Shown in pieces: positions 46,559-57,335 of a DNA stretch of 64,000 bases. The DNA lies in contig NZ_CP042968.1 in assembly GCF_001693515.2 (NCBI RefSeq), positions 4,898,001-4,962,000 of the forward strand, in the 5' to 3' direction. Source of the stretch: Bradyrhizobium paxllaeri (lineage in GTDB: Bacteria; Pseudomonadota; Alphaproteobacteria; Rhizobiales; Xanthobacteraceae). The notes under the pieces are model-generated. The model ran no database searches. It was not told where the DNA came from and saw only the letters and a list, made by a program, of their open reading frames with translations. The position numbers and the translations under genes were made by a program. Numbering within the stretch: position 1 is the stretch's first letter; each line of letters begins with the position of its first letter.

Positions 46559-47062
46559 TCAAGCCGGCGGATGCAGTCGGGTATCGAGCTCGAACGGCTC
46601 CTGGAAGCGCATTTCGTAGGCCCCTTCTGCCCGCGATCCAATGAAGATCAAATTCCAGCTGTATTTCGAAACGGCGCTTGGAATGGCGACGAACTTGTAA
46701 TTCTCCAGAAGCTCATCACCATATTTTTGTTGCCCTGCACTTGGGACACCGGGGCGAAGCCACGCCTGATTTGGAACTGAGACTGGATCGACGATGTGAA
46801 CGGCAGACGGCTCCAGGATGGTGACCGCAGTCAGAACATGAGGAACCGTATCAAGAACTCGAAAGGTCTTATGGACCGCAACTTCAAGAATCGCAGTCGA
46901 TGCGTCGAGAGCGCAATAGATCGCTCGCGTGCCTTTCGAATTCCACCGCCCTCCTACCCTGTATGCGCCCTCGCCGCTGCCCCAGGTTGGCGCGAAGACC
47001 TTGGAGTCCAGACGCCATGCGACTAACTCGCTCCCTCCAATCGGCGATGGCAGCGACGTCAC
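46559..47062 (-). CDS. RES family toxin
   Basis: 167-residue RES-domain toxin, a family that depletes NAD+ by phosphorolysis or ADP-ribosylates. Conserved features are AWRLDSKVFAPTWGSGEGAYRVGGRWNSKGTRAIYCALDASTAILEVAVHK, including the R, Y and E positions, and the C-terminal SWNLIFIGS. The ATG overlaps the stop of the antitoxin gene upstream by four bases. Antitoxin-first order is the normal RES-Xre layout. Confidence 0.93.
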   Translation of the reverse strand: MTSLPSPIGGSELVAWRLDSKVFAPTWGSGEGAYRVGGRWNSKGTRAIYCALDASTAILEVAVHKTFRVLDTVPHVLTAVTILEPSAVHIVDPVSVPNQAWLRPGVPSAGQQKYGDELLENYKFVAIPSAVSKYSWNLIFIGSRAEGAYEMRFQEPFELDTRLHPPA

Positions 47063-47577
47063 GCATAAACACCGTAAGCGAGACGCTCCAGATAATCCTC
47101 AACGATCTTTACGCCGGCGGGCGTGGTCAAAAGATCGATAGGACGCTTTTGGTTTAACCCGATAGCCGGACGCTCGAACCATTGCTCAGCTTCCTCTTGC
47201 GTGCCGAAAACGGCTGTTGCCTTTGTCAGCAGCTCCGCAAATTGCCACGCTCGACCAGCTTGCTCATGACTCAACAGACCCAACGGTTTCTTTTCCTTCC
47301 GTTGAAGGGTGCGCAAGCTCATCCCGATAGCTTGTTCAAGTGAATCCTGTCCCATCACTTTCAAGCAACCAGCGAGGTGATCGATGGCCCGATTCGGAAT
47401 TCCACCCTCCAGCAGGAAATGAGCACCAAGCGGGTCGGTCCCGACAGACCGTCCAACGGCCTCGATGCCCAGCAAACCAGCCACACGTCGATGCAGTTGC
47501 TCCCAGTTCTGGAGCACATCGATCTCGGCAACGGTCGATTTTTGAGATCGTCTGGAAGCGGTAGCCTTTTGGGCCAT
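47059..47577 (-). CDS. Xre/MbcA/ParS-type antitoxin of a RES toxin
   Basis: 172-residue antitoxin. The N-terminal half holds an atypical helix-turn-helix (AIGMSLRTLQRKEKKPLGLLSHEQAGRAWQFAELLTKATAVFG), and the C-terminal MbcA/ParS toxin-binding domain contains EEAEQWFERPAIGLNQKRPIDLLTTPAGVKIVEDYLERLAYGVYA. It blocks the RES active site and probably represses the operon. The start follows AGGAGGG. A palindromic region overlies the promoter. Confidence 0.93.
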   Translation of the reverse strand: MAQKATASRRSQKSTVAEIDVLQNWEQLHRRVAGLLGIEAVGRSVGTDPLGAHFLLEGGIPNRAIDHLAGCLKVMGQDSLEQAIGMSLRTLQRKEKKPLGLLSHEQAGRAWQFAELLTKATAVFGTQEEAEQWFERPAIGLNQKRPIDLLTTPAGVKIVEDYLERLAYGVYA

Positions 47578-49684: not shown

Positions 49685-52600
49685 ATGAAAGTCGTTCGTT
49701 CCGTTCGCCTCTGGATGAAGGAGGGCAGTTCAGACAAACTCTATGAAGTCGATCTGGTCGATCTCGAACGCCCAGACGTCGACGCACGCTATCTCGTCAA
49801 TTTCAGGTATGGCCGTCGCGGCACGTCGTTAAGGGATGGAACGAAGACTTCGTCGCCGGTCATCCGCGCGAACGCCGACAAGCTATTCGACAGTGTCGTG
49901 GTGTCCAAGATCAACGGCGGTTATCGCCGCGTCGACGGCGACGCACCACCGCTGACGGTTCGCGACACCGGCGTCGCTGCCAACGGACGCGACACGGAGC
50001 TACTCAAGAAGCTCGCGATCTGTGCGCGCAGTGCATGGCCCGACAACGAACGCGACCGCCTGTTCTGGCGCCTCGGCGTGATCCGGCTGGCCCCCGCCTA
50101 CCCCCAACTCGCTGCCATCGCCGAGAATATCGGCGCGGCGAACGCAAGTTACAGCCTCGTGTATGCGCTGGCGCGCTGCGGCGGTGCTGATGCCGCCGAT
50201 CTGCTGCGCAGCTGCGCGGACGCCAATGTCAGTCTCGTGACACGCGACTACGCGGCCTATGCCCTCGCCAGCGAACTGATGGGCGCGCGGCGACCGCCGC
50301 CACGCCTGTCGTTGCCGCGAACGACGGATGCTGCGGCGACACGCGACATCGAGATGGCGCTGACGAACGGCGACGGCGCGGGGCTGCTGCAGGCCTTGCT
50401 GGCGGCAAGCTCGGCACATCCGGGCTTCGCCAATCAGTTCCTCATCGCGCTTGCCCACCATGCGCTCGCCGACGGCGCGGCGCGCAAGACGCTGCTCGCG
50501 GCGGTGCGCGCGATGAGTCCACGCCCGCCCTATGTTCAGGTGCTGCGGCGCCTGTTCAAGTATGCCGATCTCACCGACGACGGTCCGCTGTTCGCCGCAA
50601 CGGCGCGGCAGTTCGAGCTGGCGACACCGATGTACCGTCGCGGCCGCGTCTATAATGACCGCGTCTGGGTGCCCGGTTCGCGCCAGGCGCTGAAGCTCAG
50701 CGAGGAACTGCGGAGCACGGCTCCGCGCATCGCGCTGTCCGACCAGACCCTGCTCTATTTCAAGCGGCGCGCCTGGCGCATGCTGCGCAAGCGCGCCGAG
50801 CTCGGACAGGACACCTTCACGGCGATGGCGAGTGAGCTCCTCCTCGCCTTCACCGACGCCGACGGCATCAAGCCGGCGACGTGGACCGAGTATGTCCGCA
50901 TCGATGGCCGCTTCCAGCCCGCCCCCCATGCCACCGAGGCGCTGAGCCGGGTCTGGAGCGTCAGCCACCTGCTGCATGAAGCGGCCGAGACCAGCCGCTT
51001 CAATCCCAACGCGCTCACGCATCGCCACGTCGGCGCGCATGCGCCTGACCAGCGCGAGGAAGCGTTCCCCGCGCTGTGGGATGCCCAGCCGCAACGGCTG
51101 CTGCACATCGCGACATTGGCGCGCAATCATGCGGCGGCGCGCTTCGCGGCCGAGGCGCTGCGGCAGGGCCCGCCACGGCCCGAGATGATGGACGCGGCCG
51201 CGATCGGCGGCCTGCTAGCCTCGCCATATCCGGAGGTCACCGCGCTCGCGGCATCGATCGCGCGGCGGCTGATCGATGCCGGCAAGGTCGAGGCAGCCTT
51301 GATCGCCGCACTGCTCGAGTCGGCCGTACAGGAAATGCGCGACCTCGCCATCCGCGCCATCGACGACCGCGCCGACTGGCCGTGGGCCGACCCCACCCTC
51401 GCCCGCACGGCCCTGACCAGCCCGCACGAGCACGTGCAGGGCCGGACGCGCGGCTGGCTGCGCGACCGCGCGCCCTCGCGGGACCAACGCGCCCGCGCGA
51501 CGGAAGCGTTCGCGGCGTGGCTCGCGCAGTTGCCGTCAGAACTGGACGACATGCAGCGCGCCAGCCTCACGGCCGCCCTCGCGCTGCTGCCACAGCTATG
51601 GCCCGATCGCGACTGCCCGCTGCAACCGGAAATCATCGAAAGCCTGACCGGCCACGCCAGCCCCGACGTCCAGGCAGCCAGCATCCAGCTTATTGCCGTT
51701 ACCCCAACGCGGCCCGATGACCTGCCGGCAGAGTTTTGGCAGGCCATCCTGCAGGCGGATGCACCGGAAATCCGCATTGCCTCGATGGCCCTGCTGGCAC
51801 GGCTCGACGACACCGCCCTTGCGGAGTATCGCGACGGCATCACGCTGGCGGCCACCGGCGCCCATGCCGGGCTGCGCGCGGCGGCGCGGCCGCTGGTCGC
51901 GCGCCTTGCGGCGACCGACGAAGCTTATGCCATCCGGTTGCGCGACATGCTGATGGCCGGCTTCTTCCGCGCCGAACCGGTCGAAGGCCATGCCGCCGAC
52001 ATGGTCACACTCTTCGCCGATGCCTTGCCGCGGGCAGCGGCCGCCATTGACGACGGCACGCTGTGGCGGCTGCTGCAGGCACGCGCGTCCGGCGCGCGCA
52101 TGATGGGCGCAAAGCTGCTGGAGAGCCGCGACCTGCAGCGCTTCTCTGTCCGCCAGCTTGCCCGCCTCGGCAACCATCCGTTCGCTGCCGTCCGCCGCTT
52201 CGCGCTTCAGGCGTTTGCGGCCGACGAGGCCCGCTTCCGCGCCGACCCGCAGAATGCCGTGCTGCTGGTCGAGAGCGAGTGGGACGACGTACGAGCCACC
52301 GCGGTGAACCGCCTCACCGCATGGCCCAGCGACGCGCTGCCGGCGGCGGCGCTGGCGGTCATGGCGGACTCGACCGTGCCGGCGGTGCAGGACGGCGCCC
52401 GCCTGCTGCTTCGGCGCAGCCTCGCCGACGGCGACGTCGCCGAGGTGCTGGGGCGCGTGCTGGAGCACCCCTCTGGCAGCTTTCACCTCTTCGTCACCGA
52501 GCTGATAACCGGCGATTCGCTGGCGGATGCGGCGGTCTTCGCCAAATTCCTCACCCAGGCCCGCATCATCCTGATGCAGATCAACCGCGGGCGCATCGCC

Positions 52601-52843
52601 AAGGACCGCATCTTCACGGCATTGCGCAACGAGGCGCTGGCGCACAGGGAGCGTGCCGCAGCGATCGCGCAGTTGCTGCACGACTTTACGCTCAGCGTGA
52701 CCCTTCGCGATAAGGCGCCGGCGCTGATGATCCTGCGCGACATAGCCCGGGCCTGGCCGGATCTCACTCTGCCTGTCACCGTGGCCCGTGCCGGCCGCAC
52801 GCCGTCGGGCGGCAACTCGCAAGCCAGCGGAAGCGCCGCATGA
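49685..52843 (+). CDS. WGR domain plus ARM/HEAT-repeat protein (retron partner)
   Basis: 1052-residue accessory protein. Residues about 1-85 form a WGR-type domain (RSVRLWMKEGSSDKLYEVDLVD, YLVNFRYGRRG, ending VVSKINGGYRRV). From about 110 to 1035 the sequence is a long alpha-solenoid of HEAT/ARM-like repeats rich in Ala/Leu/Arg, with repeated ALxxLLxSPxPEVxxLAAxxA-type units (for example GGLLASPYPEVTALAASIARRL). The stop overlaps the SWIM gene start by four bases (ATGA), and the RT gene follows. As I recall, ARM-repeat and winged-helix/SWIM proteins accompany type XIII retrons. WGR plus SWIM proteins also co-occur with MoxR-type ATPases (molR/yeh loci), but no ATPase is here. Confidence 0.9.
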   Translation: MKVVRSVRLWMKEGSSDKLYEVDLVDLERPDVDARYLVNFRYGRRGTSLRDGTKTSSPVIRANADKLFDSVVVSKINGGYRRVDGDAPPLTVRDTGVAANGRDTELLKKLAICARSAWPDNERDRLFWRLGVIRLAPAYPQLAAIAENIGAANASYSLVYALARCGGADAADLLRSCADANVSLVTRDYAAYALASELMGARRPPPRLSLPRTTDAAATRDIEMALTNGDGAGLLQALLAASSAHPGFANQFLIALAHHALADGAARKTLLAAVRAMSPRPPYVQVLRRLFKYADLTDDGPLFAATARQFELATPMYRRGRVYNDRVWVPGSRQALKLSEELRSTAPRIALSDQTLLYFKRRAWRMLRKRAELGQDTFTAMASELLLAFTDADGIKPATWTEYVRIDGRFQPAPHATEALSRVWSVSHLLHEAAETSRFNPNALTHRHVGAHAPDQREEAFPALWDAQPQRLLHIATLARNHAAARFAAEALRQGPPRPEMMDAAAIGGLLASPYPEVTALAASIARRLIDAGKVEAALIAALLESAVQEMRDLAIRAIDDRADWPWADPTLARTALTSPHEHVQGRTRGWLRDRAPSRDQRARATEAFAAWLAQLPSELDDMQRASLTAALALLPQLWPDRDCPLQPEIIESLTGHASPDVQAASIQLIAVTPTRPDDLPAEFWQAILQADAPEIRIASMALLARLDDTALAEYRDGITLAATGAHAGLRAAARPLVARLAATDEAYAIRLRDMLMAGFFRAEPVEGHAADMVTLFADALPRAAAAIDDGTLWRLLQARASGARMMGAKLLESRDLQRFSVRQLARLGNHPFAAVRRFALQAFAADEARFRADPQNAVLLVESEWDDVRATAVNRLTAWPSDALPAAALAVMADSTVPAVQDGARLLLRRSLADGDVAEVLGRVLEHPSGSFHLFVTELITGDSLADAAVFAKFLTQARIILMQINRGRIAKDRIFTALRNEALAHRERAAAIAQLLHDFTLSVTLRDKAPALMILRDIARAWPDLTLPVTVARAGRTPSGGNSQASGSAA

Positions 52844-54510
52844 ATTTCGCATATCGATTTCTCGGCAGCACCAGCGCCTCGTCCGACGCCGCCTCGTCGT
52901 CGTTCGCCTTCGCGCCGGACACGCTGCGCCAACCGACCTTCTTCACCGGCAAGGTCGCGCGCCACCTCGCGTTCCGCGAGGCGATCTCGGCGCTGCATCA
53001 TGTCGTCGTGTCGGACCTGCGCTTCAAGCCGCGCGACCGTACCGCCTACTTCGAGTGGCTGAAGCAGAACGAGGCCAACTTCCTCGCCGAAGCGACGAAG
53101 CAGTCCGCGGCGCTCAAGCCGCGCATCGCGGAATTGCAGGACCGCATCCGCGGCCTCGACCGCGCGCGCGATCGGCTGATGAAGCCGTTCTGGACGGCGC
53201 GGCAGGCCTATTTCAACTACCTCTACAAGGAGAACCGCGACGCCTGGATCGTGCTCGATCCTGTCATCACCGTGCATCCGGACGAGATCTTCTTCGAGTG
53301 CTTCAGCCTCGACGAATCGAGCTACGGGCGGCTGTCATGCGACCACGACGTGTTCGAGAGCCTCGGCGAGATGGCATTCGGCACCACCAACATCGACTAC
53401 AGCCACGCCCTCTACGACGAATTCCAGAAGATCCGCTCCTATCGCGACACCACGCTCACCATCGATCCCTCCGGCTTCGAGGTGCAGACCGGCGACGACC
53501 TCGACTTCCGCGAGGAGAAGATCGACCTGCCGGATAGCTGGGTGCGCGGCTTCCTGCAGGTGTCGAGCGCCATGACCCTCCGGGCGCATGTGTTCGACCT
53601 GCATCCGGTGGACATGGCCAACATTCTCACCCGCCTCGCGCAGAAAAAGGAAAAGGCCGGTCCACGCTCGCTGCGCTTTGTGCTGAAGCCCGATGCGCCC
53701 GTGGAGGTGATCATCGAACCGTGGCACGACAGGCTCACTTTCCGCCGCTCGATCTATCGCGGCAAGGCCCCTGCCGAGATCCGCATCTGGGGCCGGCGAA
53801 GGCTTGCGATCCTCGGGCGGGCGCTGCCGCTGGCGCGGTCGGTGCGGGTCCATCTGACCCAGAGCGGCCTGCCATCGTTCTTCGTCGTCGATTTCGGCGG
53901 GCTACGATTTACGCTCGGCCTGTCCGGGTGGACGGCGAACGACTGGTCGTCCGCCGGGCAGTTCGACCTGCTCGCGCCGCGCCACAAGGTCGACAGCGAC
54001 ACCGCCCAACGCATTTTCGCGGCGCTCGGCAAATCCCACGCGGCGACCGCCGCGGAGTTGTCGCGCTGGACTGGCGTTGACCAGACGCTCGTGCATGCGG
54101 CGCTCACGGGCTACACCCAGGCCGGACGCGTCATGTTCGACCTCGACAAGTCGCTCTACCGCCTGCGCGAACTGACGCGCGAGCCGCTGTCGCCGGCGCA
54201 GTTGCGCTTCGCGAGCCCGCAGGAGGAGAAGGCCGACCGCCTGATCGACGCCAACCTCGTGACGATCGGCAACATTGATCGCAACCAGGGCGCTCGCGCC
54301 GTCAACGGCAGCGTGCTCGACAACGCCCGCACCGAGCAGGTGAGCCTTGTCATCGACGACGACGACCGTCTCGTCGAGGCGCGATGCAGCTGTCATTTCT
54401 ACGGCCACAACAAGATGGCGCGCGGCCCTTGCGAACACATGCTGGCGTTGCGCCGGATCTTCCATGCCCAGGTCGAGGGCGTCGCCCAGGACGGACGCGC
54501 CATCGCATGA
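52840..54510 (+). CDS. SWIM zinc-finger protein (retron partner)
   Basis: 556-residue protein. A charged helical segment (residues about 80-120) precedes a middle beta-rich region with WVRGFLQVSSAMTLRAHVFDLHPVDMANIL. A winged-helix-like part follows (SDTAQRIFAALGKSHAATAAELSRWTGVDQTLVHAALTGYTQAGRVMFDLDKSLYRLR). The C-terminal SWIM finger has C516-x-C518 and C531-x-H533. The ATG overlaps the stop of the ARM protein. Winged-helix followed by SWIM fits the WHSWIM partner of type XIII retrons. DNA or msDNA binding is a plausible role. Confidence 0.9.
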   Translation: MNFAYRFLGSTSASSDAASSSFAFAPDTLRQPTFFTGKVARHLAFREAISALHHVVVSDLRFKPRDRTAYFEWLKQNEANFLAEATKQSAALKPRIAELQDRIRGLDRARDRLMKPFWTARQAYFNYLYKENRDAWIVLDPVITVHPDEIFFECFSLDESSYGRLSCDHDVFESLGEMAFGTTNIDYSHALYDEFQKIRSYRDTTLTIDPSGFEVQTGDDLDFREEKIDLPDSWVRGFLQVSSAMTLRAHVFDLHPVDMANILTRLAQKKEKAGPRSLRFVLKPDAPVEVIIEPWHDRLTFRRSIYRGKAPAEIRIWGRRRLAILGRALPLARSVRVHLTQSGLPSFFVVDFGGLRFTLGLSGWTANDWSSAGQFDLLAPRHKVDSDTAQRIFAALGKSHAATAAELSRWTGVDQTLVHAALTGYTQAGRVMFDLDKSLYRLRELTREPLSPAQLRFASPQEEKADRLIDANLVTIGNIDRNQGARAVNGSVLDNARTEQVSLVIDDDDRLVEARCSCHFYGHNKMARGPCEHMLALRRIFHAQVEGVAQDGRAIA

Positions 54511-54862
54511 GTGACATGAAAGCTGCCATTTGCAGACCCGGCTTGAACCGGACACGACAATTCGCGTATCACCGTATTCGGAAGGGCGCAGGCCGGTCAG
54601 GACCTTGCAACCCGGGCGGCGTATCGCCGTCCTTGCACCATGACCATGCATGCGTCACTGGCCCGATCTTCACTGGGCCGGGGCAGTCCACCCATCCGCA
54701 ATCGCAGAATGGGTTCCTTGAACCCAATTGCGGATGGGTGGACGCCCCGGCGTCGAGTGGATCGATCCAGTTCTTGGATGAGACGAAGGCAATCCGGCCT
54801 GCGCCCTTTCCGATCTCTCTCCCCCCCGTGGCCGCCACCTTCCTGACCGGAGGGCTGGCCGC
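54511..54862 (+). other. 352-base gap holding the retron RNA
   Basis: Apart from the predicted msr-msd RNA, the first 67 bases after the SWIM stop are unassigned and may hold a promoter for the RNA. The last 49 bases contain GACCGGAGGG, the RT ribosome site. Confidence 0.6.
54578..54813 (+). ncRNA. Predicted retron msr-msd non-coding RNA
   Basis: Retron-type template RNA immediately before the RT gene. a1 is TCGGAAGGGCGCAGGCCGG (54578-54596) and a2 is CCGGCCTGCGCCCTTTCCGA (54794-54813), complementary over 19 pairs with one bulged base. Candidate branching guanosines follow a1 (54600-54601). msr: GGGCGGCG-TAT-CGCCGTCC stem-loop (54614-54632) and a shorter GGCCC/GGGCC pair. msd: a 25-bp stem with one bulged A (54677-54702 with 54727-54751), topped by GGGTTC-CTT-GAACCC. 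The RT starts 50 bases past a2. End points of the mature msDNA are inferred from known retrons. Confidence 0.85.
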
Positions 54863-56731
54863 GTGACCGACACCGTTTCTCCCGGCACGCTGACGCGCCA
54901 GGAACTCTACGACCGTATCCGCCAGTCGTCGAAGGACGAGGTCATCCTCGAGGAGATGATCCGCCTCGGTTTTTGGCCCGACGGCGAAAACGAGCCGGCG
55001 CCTGCTGCGGACGCGATCCGCGCGCGCGGAGAGGCGATGCGCGAGCTCAGCGAATTGCAGCGCCAGAATGCCGCCCTCGGCGATCCCGTGCGCGCGCTCA
55101 AGGAAATGCACAAGCGCCGCAAGGCCGAAGCGATGGCGCGGCGGCAGGAGACCAAGCGTCGCAACGCCGAGGCCCGACAGACGCGGGCGTTTGCCTGGTA
55201 CGAACGCCGCAAGCGCGATGTGCTCTACCTCGGCGAGGACGTCTCGCCCGGCCTTCACAGCCGCACGACCACCATGCCGTTGCGCGACGGCTTGCCACCG
55301 CTCGCCGATGCCAAGGCGCTCGCTGACGCGATGGGCATCCCGCTGGGCGAGCTGCGCTTCCTCGCGTTCAACAGAAAGGTGGCGTCGGTCAATCACTATC
55401 AGCGCTTCACGATCCCCAAGAAGAGCGGTGGCGAGCGGTTGATCTCGGCGCCGATGCCGCGCCTCAAGCGCGCGCAGTATTGGGTTCTGGACAACATCCT
55501 CGCACGCGCGCCGCTGCATGATGCCGCGCACGGCTTCGCGCCTGAGCGTTCGATCCTGACCAATGCGCGCAACCATGTCGGCCGCGACGTGGTGATCAAT
55601 CTCGACCTCAAGGATTTCTTCCCGACCCTGACCTACGCCCGCGTCAAGGGTCTGTTCGAGGCGCTGGGCTATACTGAGGCGGTCGCGATCCCGCTCGCGC
55701 TGTTGTGCACCGAGCCAATGGTTGATGAAGTGACGCTCGACGGCGAGCGCCACTTCATCGCCGACGGCCCGCGGACGCTCGACGGCGAGCGCCACTTCAT
55801 CGCCGACGGCCCGCGGCTGCTGCCGCAGGGCGCGCCGACCAGCCCGGCGATCACCAACCTGATCTGCCGCAGGCTCGACCGCCGCGTGATGGGGCTCGCC
55901 CGCACGCTCGGCTTTGTCTACAGCCGCTATGCCGACGATTTGACCTTCTCCGGCTCGGGCGAAGCGGTGAAAAAGATCGGCACCTTGCTCAAGGCCGTGC
56001 ACGTCATTGTCGAGGCCGAAGGGTTCAAGATTCATCCGGACAAGACGCGCGTGATGCGCCGGTCGACGCGCCAGGAGGTCACCGGCCTCACGGTCAACGA
56101 AGCCGTGGCCGTGCCGCGCGACCTGCTGCGCCGTTACCGCGCGGTGCTGCAGCAGGTCGAGCGCCACGGGCCTGATGGCAAGCACTTCGGCCCCGGCAAG
56201 GACGTGATCCGGTCGCTGCTCGGCTTCGGCCAATTCGCCAAGATGGTCGATCCAGAGAGCGGCGCGCCCTTGCTGCAGCGAGCGCAGCGCCTTGCCGCGC
56301 ATTACGCGCCCACCCGCTCCGCGCGGCGCCCGACCCGCGCCGCATTCCGCAAGGCTGCGGCCGCCGGCCAGACGCCGCCGGGCCGGCAATGGAATCCCGC
56401 GGAGCGGCCGCCACCAGCGCCGGACCCGGTGCTGGTTGCGCTGGCGCGGCAGGAAGAAAAGAAGCGGGCCGCCCAAGCGCGCACCGCAACTCCCGGCGTG
56501 TCACGCCCGCCCAACGTCCCCCCATCGCCGTGGGGCACGCCGCGCGCCGCCGGCCCGCAGGCGGCTCCCACGGCGGGACCGGCGACAGCACCCAAAAAGA
56601 GACAGCCGTGGTACGTCACGGCGATGGTGATCCTGCTGGCGGTGATCCTCGCGCTCGCGATCAGGCCTGGCGGCGCCGTGATCGCCGGCGCGCTGCTGTT
56701 TGCCTATTTCAGGTGGTGGTGGAAGCGTTGA
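54863..56731 (+). CDS. Retron reverse transcriptase with C-terminal membrane hairpin
   Basis: 622-residue RT. Retron hallmarks: NARNH at 234-238 (NAxxH of region X), DLKDFF at 248-253 (motif A), QGAPTSP at 322-328 (motif B), YADD at 356-359 (catalytic), HPDKTRVM near 391 and VTG at 406-408 (region Y). The first 160 residues are charged and helical (KEMHKRRKAEAMARRQETKRRNAEARQ), longer than in most retron RTs. After about 490 comes a Pro/Ala-rich linker, then two helices (VTAMVILLAVILALAI, GAVIAGALLFAYF) ending WWWKR. TLDGERHFIADGPR occurs twice in a row (291-318). GTG start with GGAGGG upstream. Its template RNA lies just before it. Confidence 0.92.
   Translation: MTDTVSPGTLTRQELYDRIRQSSKDEVILEEMIRLGFWPDGENEPAPAADAIRARGEAMRELSELQRQNAALGDPVRALKEMHKRRKAEAMARRQETKRRNAEARQTRAFAWYERRKRDVLYLGEDVSPGLHSRTTTMPLRDGLPPLADAKALADAMGIPLGELRFLAFNRKVASVNHYQRFTIPKKSGGERLISAPMPRLKRAQYWVLDNILARAPLHDAAHGFAPERSILTNARNHVGRDVVINLDLKDFFPTLTYARVKGLFEALGYTEAVAIPLALLCTEPMVDEVTLDGERHFIADGPRTLDGERHFIADGPRLLPQGAPTSPAITNLICRRLDRRVMGLARTLGFVYSRYADDLTFSGSGEAVKKIGTLLKAVHVIVEAEGFKIHPDKTRVMRRSTRQEVTGLTVNEAVAVPRDLLRRYRAVLQQVERHGPDGKHFGPGKDVIRSLLGFGQFAKMVDPESGAPLLQRAQRLAAHYAPTRSARRPTRAAFRKAAAAGQTPPGRQWNPAERPPPAPDPVLVALARQEEKKRAAQARTATPGVSRPPNVPPSPWGTPRAAGPQAAPTAGPATAPKKRQPWYVTAMVILLAVILALAIRPGGAVIAGALLFAYFRWWWKR
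55733..55816 (+). repeat. Exact 42-base tandem duplication in the RT gene
   Basis: Two perfect copies, 55733-55774 and 55775-55816, encode TLDGERHFIADGPR twice, in frame, between RT motifs A and B. Identity at every base points to a recent event such as slippage. Confidence 0.97.
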
Positions 56732-56888: not shown

Positions 56889-57335
56889 GGTGCGCTCGGA
56901 GGTAGCAGAAGCATTCTCGCAGCCGCAGCTTCGCCGCGAATGAAGGATTATCTCAATGATATCAAACTTCGCGAACACTTCCGGCCGGTGGCACCGATAT
57001 GCCTGGAGGATCGTGCGCCGGATATTTTCAGTCCTGGAACGCCGGACCCTTACATGCTTTTCGATCACCAGACTCGAGCAGAATGGTGCGAAAAGATCCC
57101 AGCTGTTGTACATCTCGACCGATCTGCGCGATTGCAGACCGTTTGCAGAACCTCTCAGCACAAAATCGCAGAACTTCTCATAGAATACGAAAAACTCTCG
57201 GGCATTCCGCTGCTTTGCAATACAAGTGCTAACCTCCATGGACGTGGGTTTTTCCCGGATGCCGCAGCCGCCTGCGAATGGGGACAGGTTGCGCACGTAT
57301 GGTGCGATGGCATGCTATGGACGAAAACTCCGTAA
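56889..57335 (+). pseudogene. Carbamoyltransferase (NodU/HypF-like family) C-terminal fragment
   Basis: About 148 codons ending at a TAA at 57333. The reading matches the C-terminal domain of NodU-type O-carbamoyltransferases: ALGGSRSILAAAASPRMKDYLN, then EHFRPVAPICLEDRAP, VVHLDRSARLQTV and SGIPLLCNTSANLHGRGFFPD. The family protein is about 550-600 residues, so the front three quarters are missing. The frame is open farther upstream (to 56700) without family similarity. It lies downstream of the RT and is probably a recombination scar. Carbamoyltransferases are widespread and this alone does not imply nodulation. Confidence 0.75.

Follow-up and report, generated by a model that had tools for sequence, protein, structure and literature searches.

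A type XIII retron in Bradyrhizobium paxllaeri with a structured msr-msd RNA and a helper protein of predicted clamp-like fold

The stretch of DNA analysed here, a 64,000-nt window of Bradyrhizobium paxllaeri (NZ_CP042968.1), holds at 49685..56731 three genes and an RNA that together constitute a type XIII retron of Bradyrhizobium type, a member of a class already known and barely studied, the name of which reportedly comes from Mestre et al. 2020. The gene content, the structured msr-msd RNA and a reverse transcriptase (RT) with catalytic and retron motifs are established by sequence, and a role in phage defence by abortive infection can soundly be inferred from other retron types.

The three open reading frames (ORFs) lie head to tail on the plus strand and encode proteins of 1052, 556 and 622 residues (genes 1, 2 and 3; Table 1), the first two sharing an ATGA overlap. 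Based on a hidden Markov model search with the PADLOC retron models, which for type XIII comprise RT_XIII, WGR_XIII, SWIM_XIII and HEAT-ARM_XIII, the best match of each gene was a type XIII model at near-full model coverage (WGR_XIII, E = 1.1e-255; SWIM_XIII, 1.4e-223; RT_XIII, 4.1e-179), and the RT scored 594 bits with RT_XIII vs. 331 bits with the next PADLOC model. Among related loci, for which we analysed the best 80 of 491, a sample that leans to close kin, the three genes stood together in 73, in the order WGR-SWIM-RT in 57 and RT-WGR-SWIM in 16. Six of the seven loci without the trio lie on contigs ending close by; the seventh (L065:5684-10614), from a gammaproteobacterial metagenome-assembled genome, is a WGR-SWIM pair with no RT or RNA match in its 19.6-kb stretch. 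Broken RT or WGR frames were seen at L019, L023 and L029, two of them from Bradyrhizobium and one from Chenggangzhangella, and reflect either decay or sequencing error. Judging by record titles and tree labels, the phyla represented are Pseudomonadota, Campylobacterota, Bacteroidota, Myxococcota and Cyanobacteriota. Twelve of the 80 are from Bradyrhizobium, and in a tree of 70 RTs, all of type XIII, the window RT is sister to that of B. lablabi (support 100/94). A preliminary description of this DNA, made from the sequence alone, had proposed the same ORF coordinates and overlap, a type XIII-like retron and a rhizobial member of that type; the coordinates and overlap hold, the type is borne out by the PADLOC models, by the co-occurrence of the partners with the RT and by the conserved RNA, and the rhizobial placement agrees with the relatives just given and with a nodU C-terminal fragment downstream.

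The preliminary description had also placed a retron-like RNA before the RT, and this was corroborated. At 54580-54810, between genes 2 and 3, a perfect 15-nt inverted repeat (54582-54596/54794-54808), within arms a1 and a2, encloses an msr stem-loop and a long hairpin tipped by a small capped hairpin, and the region folds with a z score of -8.2. In an alignment of 18 alphaproteobacterial loci (A2), 98.1% of 1494 cells were paired and 31 of 83 pairs showed two-sided changes, the structure having been predicted from the same alignment in which the pairs were counted; on each of five measures, 0 of 500 shuffles were as high as observed, and sliding the partner by 1-3 columns let pairing fall to 36-46%. 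Helices 7 and 8 were paired in 99.7% and 99.2% of cells, with two-sided changes in 21 of the 32 pairs of helix 7. When RNAalifold was applied to 39 of 70 loci (A3, like A2 hand-picked to thin near-copies), 35 pairs were predicted, of which 30 showed one or more compensatory changes; pairs of the a1/a2 helix were not predicted there. Because A2 and A3 were anchored on hairpins found by pairing score, the counts for the long hairpin lean toward pairing, a bias addressed by the shuffle control, the slid-partner control and a model restricted to the msr part. A chance structure was rejected, with 67 of 70 loci beating their own 20 shuffles and 57 beating all 1400; of the three failures (L061, L073, L091), L073 and L091 were subsequently matched by the msr model and L061 was not. 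A search of 54400-55000 against Rfam 15 gave a single match at E ≤ 1, at 20.9 bits vs. a cut-off of 100 and thus nowhere near it; the present alignments could serve to curate the RNA as a family.

The covariance model of the msr part (R1), trained on 31 of the 72 sources that it matched, found the RNA in the window (94.8 bits, E = 5e-27, the window belonging to the training set) and at 71 of the 80 loci, across five phyla. Seven of the nine misses are contigs ending before the RT start (L049, L050, L051, L058, L060, L083, L090), and the other two are the RT-less L065 and L061, where an RT is present; R1 gave no match either at two RT-less loci that combine SWIM and DUF6493 proteins (L012, L013). 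The RNA lies 5' of the RT in both gene orders, and one copy was found in the host genome, where scoring covered 150 of 1514 first-look candidates. Across 31 alphaproteobacterial loci, pairwise differences amounted to 0.35/0.34 in the inner stem arms, 0.14 in the msr part, 0.17 in the apical part, 0.16-0.17 in the outer stem, 0.21-0.24 in a2 and a1 and 0.53 in the 5' flank; the corresponding values for 13 Bradyrhizobium loci were 0.07 (inner stem), 0.04 (msr), 0.03 (apical part) and 0.15 (flank). Given this divergence, about twice that of the msr part, together with the covarying pairs, the sequence of the inner stem varies more freely than that of the remaining RNA, with pairing preserved. Positive selection on the msd stem is not claimed, since the stem diverges faster than the msr part (0.34 vs. 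0.14) and more slowly than the 5' flank (0.53).

Six loci carry several RNA copies before one RT (E ≤ 0.1): two copies in L044, L085, L091 and L092 and three in L062 and L069. Every copy has the long hairpin at five of these loci, and one L092 copy is without it (score 8.3); one L062 copy matches the msr model weakly (E = 0.033) and has a good hairpin. In most cases the stems are unlike from copy to copy: the L044 copies, 89% alike over 300 nt, have stems with different cores; those of L069 are 85-96% alike over 206 nt, and two of their three stems are nearly identical. Loci of this kind raise the question of whether one RT serves several msDNAs (multicopy single-stranded DNAs), and the variable msd stem that of whether it sets phage specificity.

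The RT carries, in order, the motifs NAxxH, YADD and VTG, which are hallmarks of retron RTs; they were looked at in relatives as well and are present as the preliminary description had said. A sequence search of the PDB returned 17 matches, of which the best eight and 12 overall are named retron RTs, including Ec86 (E = 1e-40) and Ec67, which we take to be Eco2 (E = 3e-37), with a group II intron entry second to last. The best retron NCBIfam model scored 225 bits vs. 56 for the group II intron model, both below cut-off, and a group II intron RT or another RT class was rejected on such far lower scores.

Relative to solved Ec86-type chains, the window RT adds a long C-terminal linker and then a tail, with a best 19-residue hydropathy of 2.43 within the last 115 residues. 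We compared the RT ends in a set of 70, from which L008 (same species as L040), L029 (frameshifted), L060 (a fragment) and the contig-cut L014 and L017 were excluded. A hydrophobic stretch (19-residue mean of at least 1.6) was found in 41, namely in all 31 alphaproteobacterial RTs and 10 of 39 others, L036 having been placed in this class by hand (hydropathy 2.04). The remaining RTs end in a Trp-containing motif (16), in NIL-MFRK (6), in other sequences (5, of which L056, L059, L068 and L074 are amphipathic by eye and L066 is not) or without a tail (2). On the 70-RT tree the hydrophobic tail requires three changes. Judged by their sequences, the alphaproteobacterial tails probably span the membrane, that of the window as a probable membrane hairpin.

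The two partner proteins are of the kinds that the preliminary description had suggested, a WGR plus alpha-solenoid protein and a winged-helix/SWIM protein. In the former, which matches WGR_XIII, YGRRG replaces the WGR signature of the N-terminal domain. The window's own protein had no Pfam match at E ≤ 0.01; among 37 members of its alignment, 24 matched Pfam WGR and 17 HEAT_2. An AlphaFold2 model (predicted local distance difference test score, pLDDT, 87) is a helical solenoid, for which a fold search returned generic HEAT and karyopherin-type proteins. In the latter, besides the SWIM_XIII match, Pfam SWIM scored just above its cut-off (20.1 vs. 19.6 bits), the putative zinc-finger residues C516, C518, C531 and H533 are invariant across 33 sequences, and the winged helix was read from the model; DprA_WH and MarR_2 each matched one of the 33 alignment members. 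The predicted structure of gene 2 further contains a two-lobed PCNA-like region with Foldseek matches to sliding clamps, and the protein is thus predicted to share the fold of the sliding clamps of DNA replication. Of 19 conserved basic positions in the clamp region, 7 lie in four putative pore helices, which account for 48 of its 332 positions (P = 0.011, with helices chosen after viewing the model and ranges read by eye from its secondary structure); for conserved acidic positions there is no comparable enrichment (P = 0.63, for a slightly different helix choice).

Cumulatively, we consider it on balance probable that this type XIII retron works through an msDNA latch, clamp-like and solenoid partners, a membrane-tied RT and killing directed at DNA. 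The RT would prime on the RNA and make msDNA, the duplex stem of which would be the sensor; the winged-helix, clamp-like and SWIM parts of gene 2 would grip that stem, and gene 1, through its WGR/HEAT solenoid, would serve as a scaffold joining the other parts in a complex that is inactive at rest. In the alphaproteobacterial clade, the RT would be tethered to the inner membrane via its C-terminal hydrophobic stretch. A phage protein that binds, modifies or degrades the msDNA stem would open the latch, upon which the cell would be stopped or killed and the population protected. The killing step, the least certain, may be a DNA-directed action by the gene 1-gene 2 pair, which we favour because clamp, winged-helix, SWIM and WGR families are known for nucleic-acid binding and no clear toxin domain is apparent. 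We count in favour of this mechanism the matches to the type XIII models, the association of the three genes in 73 of 80 loci, the position of the RNA 5' of the RT in both gene orders and the failure to find it at the RT-less L065, L012 and L013, the msd stem that varies yet remains paired, the PCNA-like fold and the RT tails. As described in PMC13158370, msDNA is a latch in other retrons, freed by phage SSB, methylation or degradation.

Several observations weigh against the latch mechanism. A Pfam search found no killing-type enzyme domain in genes 1 and 2 of the window, and two of the 37 gene 1 homologues matched DNA_alkylation, an enzyme family of HEAT-like repeats, which suggests similarity of the repeats. 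The clamp fold is supported by a single predicted model (pLDDT 73; predicted template-modelling score 0.74), its top Foldseek match superposes loosely (template-modelling score 0.28 by query and 0.60 by target, root-mean-square deviation 9.1), and PCNA was matched neither among the 33 gene 2 alignment members (Pfam, E ≤ 0.01) nor in a PDB sequence search with gene 2 (E ≤ 0.1). Two of the 70 RTs, both cyanobacterial, have no tail and L066 has no hydrophobic one, so that the tail is not essential everywhere. Finally, just before motif B the window RT carries a 42-bp tandem duplication (2.0 copies with 100% matches in Tandem Repeats Finder, TRF); an exact tandem repeat of 10-20 residues occurs in this RT alone among 73 RT ORFs. 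Being exact, the duplication appears recent, and it may impair the enzyme, the activity of which is uncertain on this account. The duplication, like the hydrophobic RT tail and the clamp-like fold of gene 2, is absent from the preliminary description.

Four other explanations, compatible with one another and with the latch mechanism, have to be weighed. The RT tail could itself be the effector, freed on triggering to permeabilise the inner membrane, with genes 1 and 2 as sensor and lock; this would fit the hydrophobic stretch in all alphaproteobacterial RTs and in 41 of 70 overall, the 16 Trp-containing ends, some of them polybasic, and the transmembrane effectors that PMC13158370 names for other retrons, but the RT ends of Bacteroidota and Campylobacterota are too short for a membrane span and two cyanobacterial RTs lack a tail altogether, and we regard such an effector as unlikely. 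We give equally little credence to a gene 2 product that is a true sliding clamp ringing DNA, either the msDNA duplex or phage forks, and inspects replication in the manner of 9-1-1. The predicted two-lobed fold and the basic, not acidic, enrichment in the putative pore helices are consistent with it, and the docking peptides would then be the short C-terminal tails seen on many RTs from outside the Alphaproteobacteria, since short tails of aromatic or NIL-MF type that follow a long linker resemble clamp-binding peptides; however, lobe 1 has a helical insert of about 70 residues, gene 2 was modelled as a monomer, and alphaproteobacterial RTs end in hydrophobic stretches instead. Joining the clamp with winged helix and SWIM finger, the C-terminal tether of the RT and the variable paired stems and arrays into a 9-1-1-like sensor that inspects replication with multiple baits is a more inclusive idea, which we put forward tentatively as possible and somewhat unlikely.

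Genes 1 and 2 might alternatively be a free-standing two-gene system captured by some retrons, with RT and msDNA as a control unit only. SWIM_XIII-related proteins do lie beside DUF6493/HEAT proteins in Diaphorobacter and Streptomyces, with no RT annotated in the 19-kb stretches, and L065 keeps a WGR-SWIM pair without RT in 19.6 kb; yet of 80 close relatives 73 have the RT, six of the remaining seven are truncated where a contig stops, and the plasmid SWIM proteins are merely 25-27% identical, which makes capture improbable in our view. Nor do we think it likely that the window copy is dying, its RT inactivated by the duplication and the locus a relic. The exactness and hence recency of the duplication, the broken frames at L019, L023 and L029 and the adjoining nodU fragment point that way, but all three frames are open, the catalytic motifs and the RNA are intact, and the length before motif B varies among the 73 RT ORFs, being 23 residues in 58, 26 in five and 39 in three (by pattern match, with no match in six; 37 residues in the window RT). 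Keeping in mind that none of these four excludes it, we retain the msDNA-latch mechanism as the preferred reading.

The distribution of the SWIM family is sparse and patchy. It turned up in 4 of 41 genomes of the relatives' sample (one partial match), in 2 of 289 of the class and in 5 of 398 of the phylum (one weak), the host's own genome being included each time; the SWIM_XIII model also matched in an archaeal control genome, Methanosarcina acetivorans. In six of nine left-flanked Bradyrhizobium loci (L016, L018-L022), the retron block (about 49.6-56.7 kb) follows genes that match the window at 39.6-44.3 kb; L025 has a short match only, and L023 and L024 have none. By comparison with these relatives, the window thus holds about 5 kb more ahead of the retron. 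This extra stretch contains, about 2 kb upstream of the locus, a RES/Xre (ParT/ParS) toxin-antitoxin pair (46559-47577, minus strand), and blastn did not match it to those Bradyrhizobium loci that have the outer left flank in common with the window. Directly after the RT lies a C-terminal fragment of NodU, a nodulation carbamoyltransferase (56892-57329, plus strand; E = 1.8e-91, 308 bits vs. a cut-off of 1000), covering profile positions 411-555 of 556, with the rest outside the ORF. Carriage as prophage cargo was rejected, as pattern scans of limited reach confirmed no RT or SWIM relative in viral_contigs and no SWIM relative was found in phage records, where the RT was not searched; a tRNA-site island was likewise rejected, with no tRNA in the window.

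Table 1. Features of the retron locus in window coordinates
Feature	Coordinates	Strand	Evidence
Gene 1, WGR + HEAT/ARM alpha-solenoid protein (WGR_XIII), 1052 residues	49685..52843	+	PADLOC over 1-1035
WGR-type domain, about residues 1-80	49685..49924	+	Homologue alignment; Pfam WGR in relatives; model strands 2-53
Gene 2, SWIM_XIII protein, 556 residues	52840..54510	+	PADLOC over 1-543; Pfam SWIM 505-537
Predicted PCNA-like clamp region, residues 34-365, helical insert about 68-131	52939..53934	+	Predicted structure
Putative winged-helix region, residues 386-442	53995..54165	+	Model secondary structure, read by eye
SWIM zinc finger, residues 505-537	54352..54450	+	Pfam; alignment
RNA arm a1	54580..54596	+	15-nt perfect inverted repeat; helix 1 of covarying structure
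msr part, stem-loop 54614-54632, conserved CTTGC motif	54598..54668	+	Covariance model R1; alignments A2, A3
Long msd-type hairpin, arms 54669-54702/54727-54761, apical hairpin 54710-54726	54669..54761	+	Helices 7, 8
RNA arm a2	54794..54810	+	Inverted repeat; covarying structure
Gene 3, retron reverse transcriptase RT_XIII, 622 residues, GTG start	54863..56731	+	PADLOC; Pfam RVT_1 184-411
Exact in-frame 42-bp tandem duplication, 14 residues twice, before LPQGAPTSP motif	55732..55816	+	TRF
C-terminal hydrophobic stretch, residues 584-616, then RWWWKR	56612..56710	+	Hydropathy

By title and abstract start, in a search that left subscription literature mostly beyond its reach, we found no paper on the mechanism of type XIII retrons and no description of a clamp-like fold in their SWIM partner, nor did titles and abstract starts yield a matching paper for retrons combined with WGR, with PCNA or sliding clamps, with SWIM/WGR/MoxR or with several templates. 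Term searches returned no mention of XIII, WGR or SWIM in PMC12548924, PMC8867640 and PMC8934634, of XIII in the accessible part of PMC13405049, or of SWIM, WGR or PCNA in PMC7159879. The predicted clamp-like fold of the helper protein, if true, makes the mode of virus sensing testable; the parts open to test are the ligand of the clamp-like protein, the msd stem as determinant of phage specificity and the service of one RT to several msDNAs.

Considering the known systems, the locus agrees with retron type XIII in the best match of all three genes and in the RNA ahead of the RT, and differs in the hydrophobic C-terminal stretch and the 42-bp duplication of its RT. The Ec86 RT chains in the PDB have 320-349 residues, whereas the window RT, at 622, is extended both N- and C-terminally; where Ec67 has a Toprim effector domain according to PMC12405507, the window RT has a hydrophobic tail instead. 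The SWIM-DUF6493 pairs on plasmids of Diaphorobacter and Streptomyces (L012:8752-15085 and L013:8770-13009, with one or two DUF6493 proteins) are similar in that a related SWIM protein adjoins a large protein, with HEAT-type repeats in one case, and dissimilar in having no RT annotated nearby, no RNA match and DUF6493 in place of the WGR solenoid. PCNA and 9-1-1 clamps, which among the 50 matches listed are 8-13% identical to gene 2, are rings, whereas gene 2 is known as a single-chain predicted model and, unlike them, has a helical insert in lobe 1 and a putative winged helix and SWIM finger in the same chain. As an analogue for the proposed msDNA latch we suggest the type IX Retron-Kva2, in which, according to PMC13405049, the msDNA stem of the RT-msDNA complex carries a winged-helix protein, with D5 of phage T5 as a mimic. 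The toxin of Retron-Kva2 is, by the same account, a HEPN RNase, a domain not seen in the window locus, and the winged helix of gene 2, unlike that of Retron-Kva2, would be part of a larger clamp-like protein.

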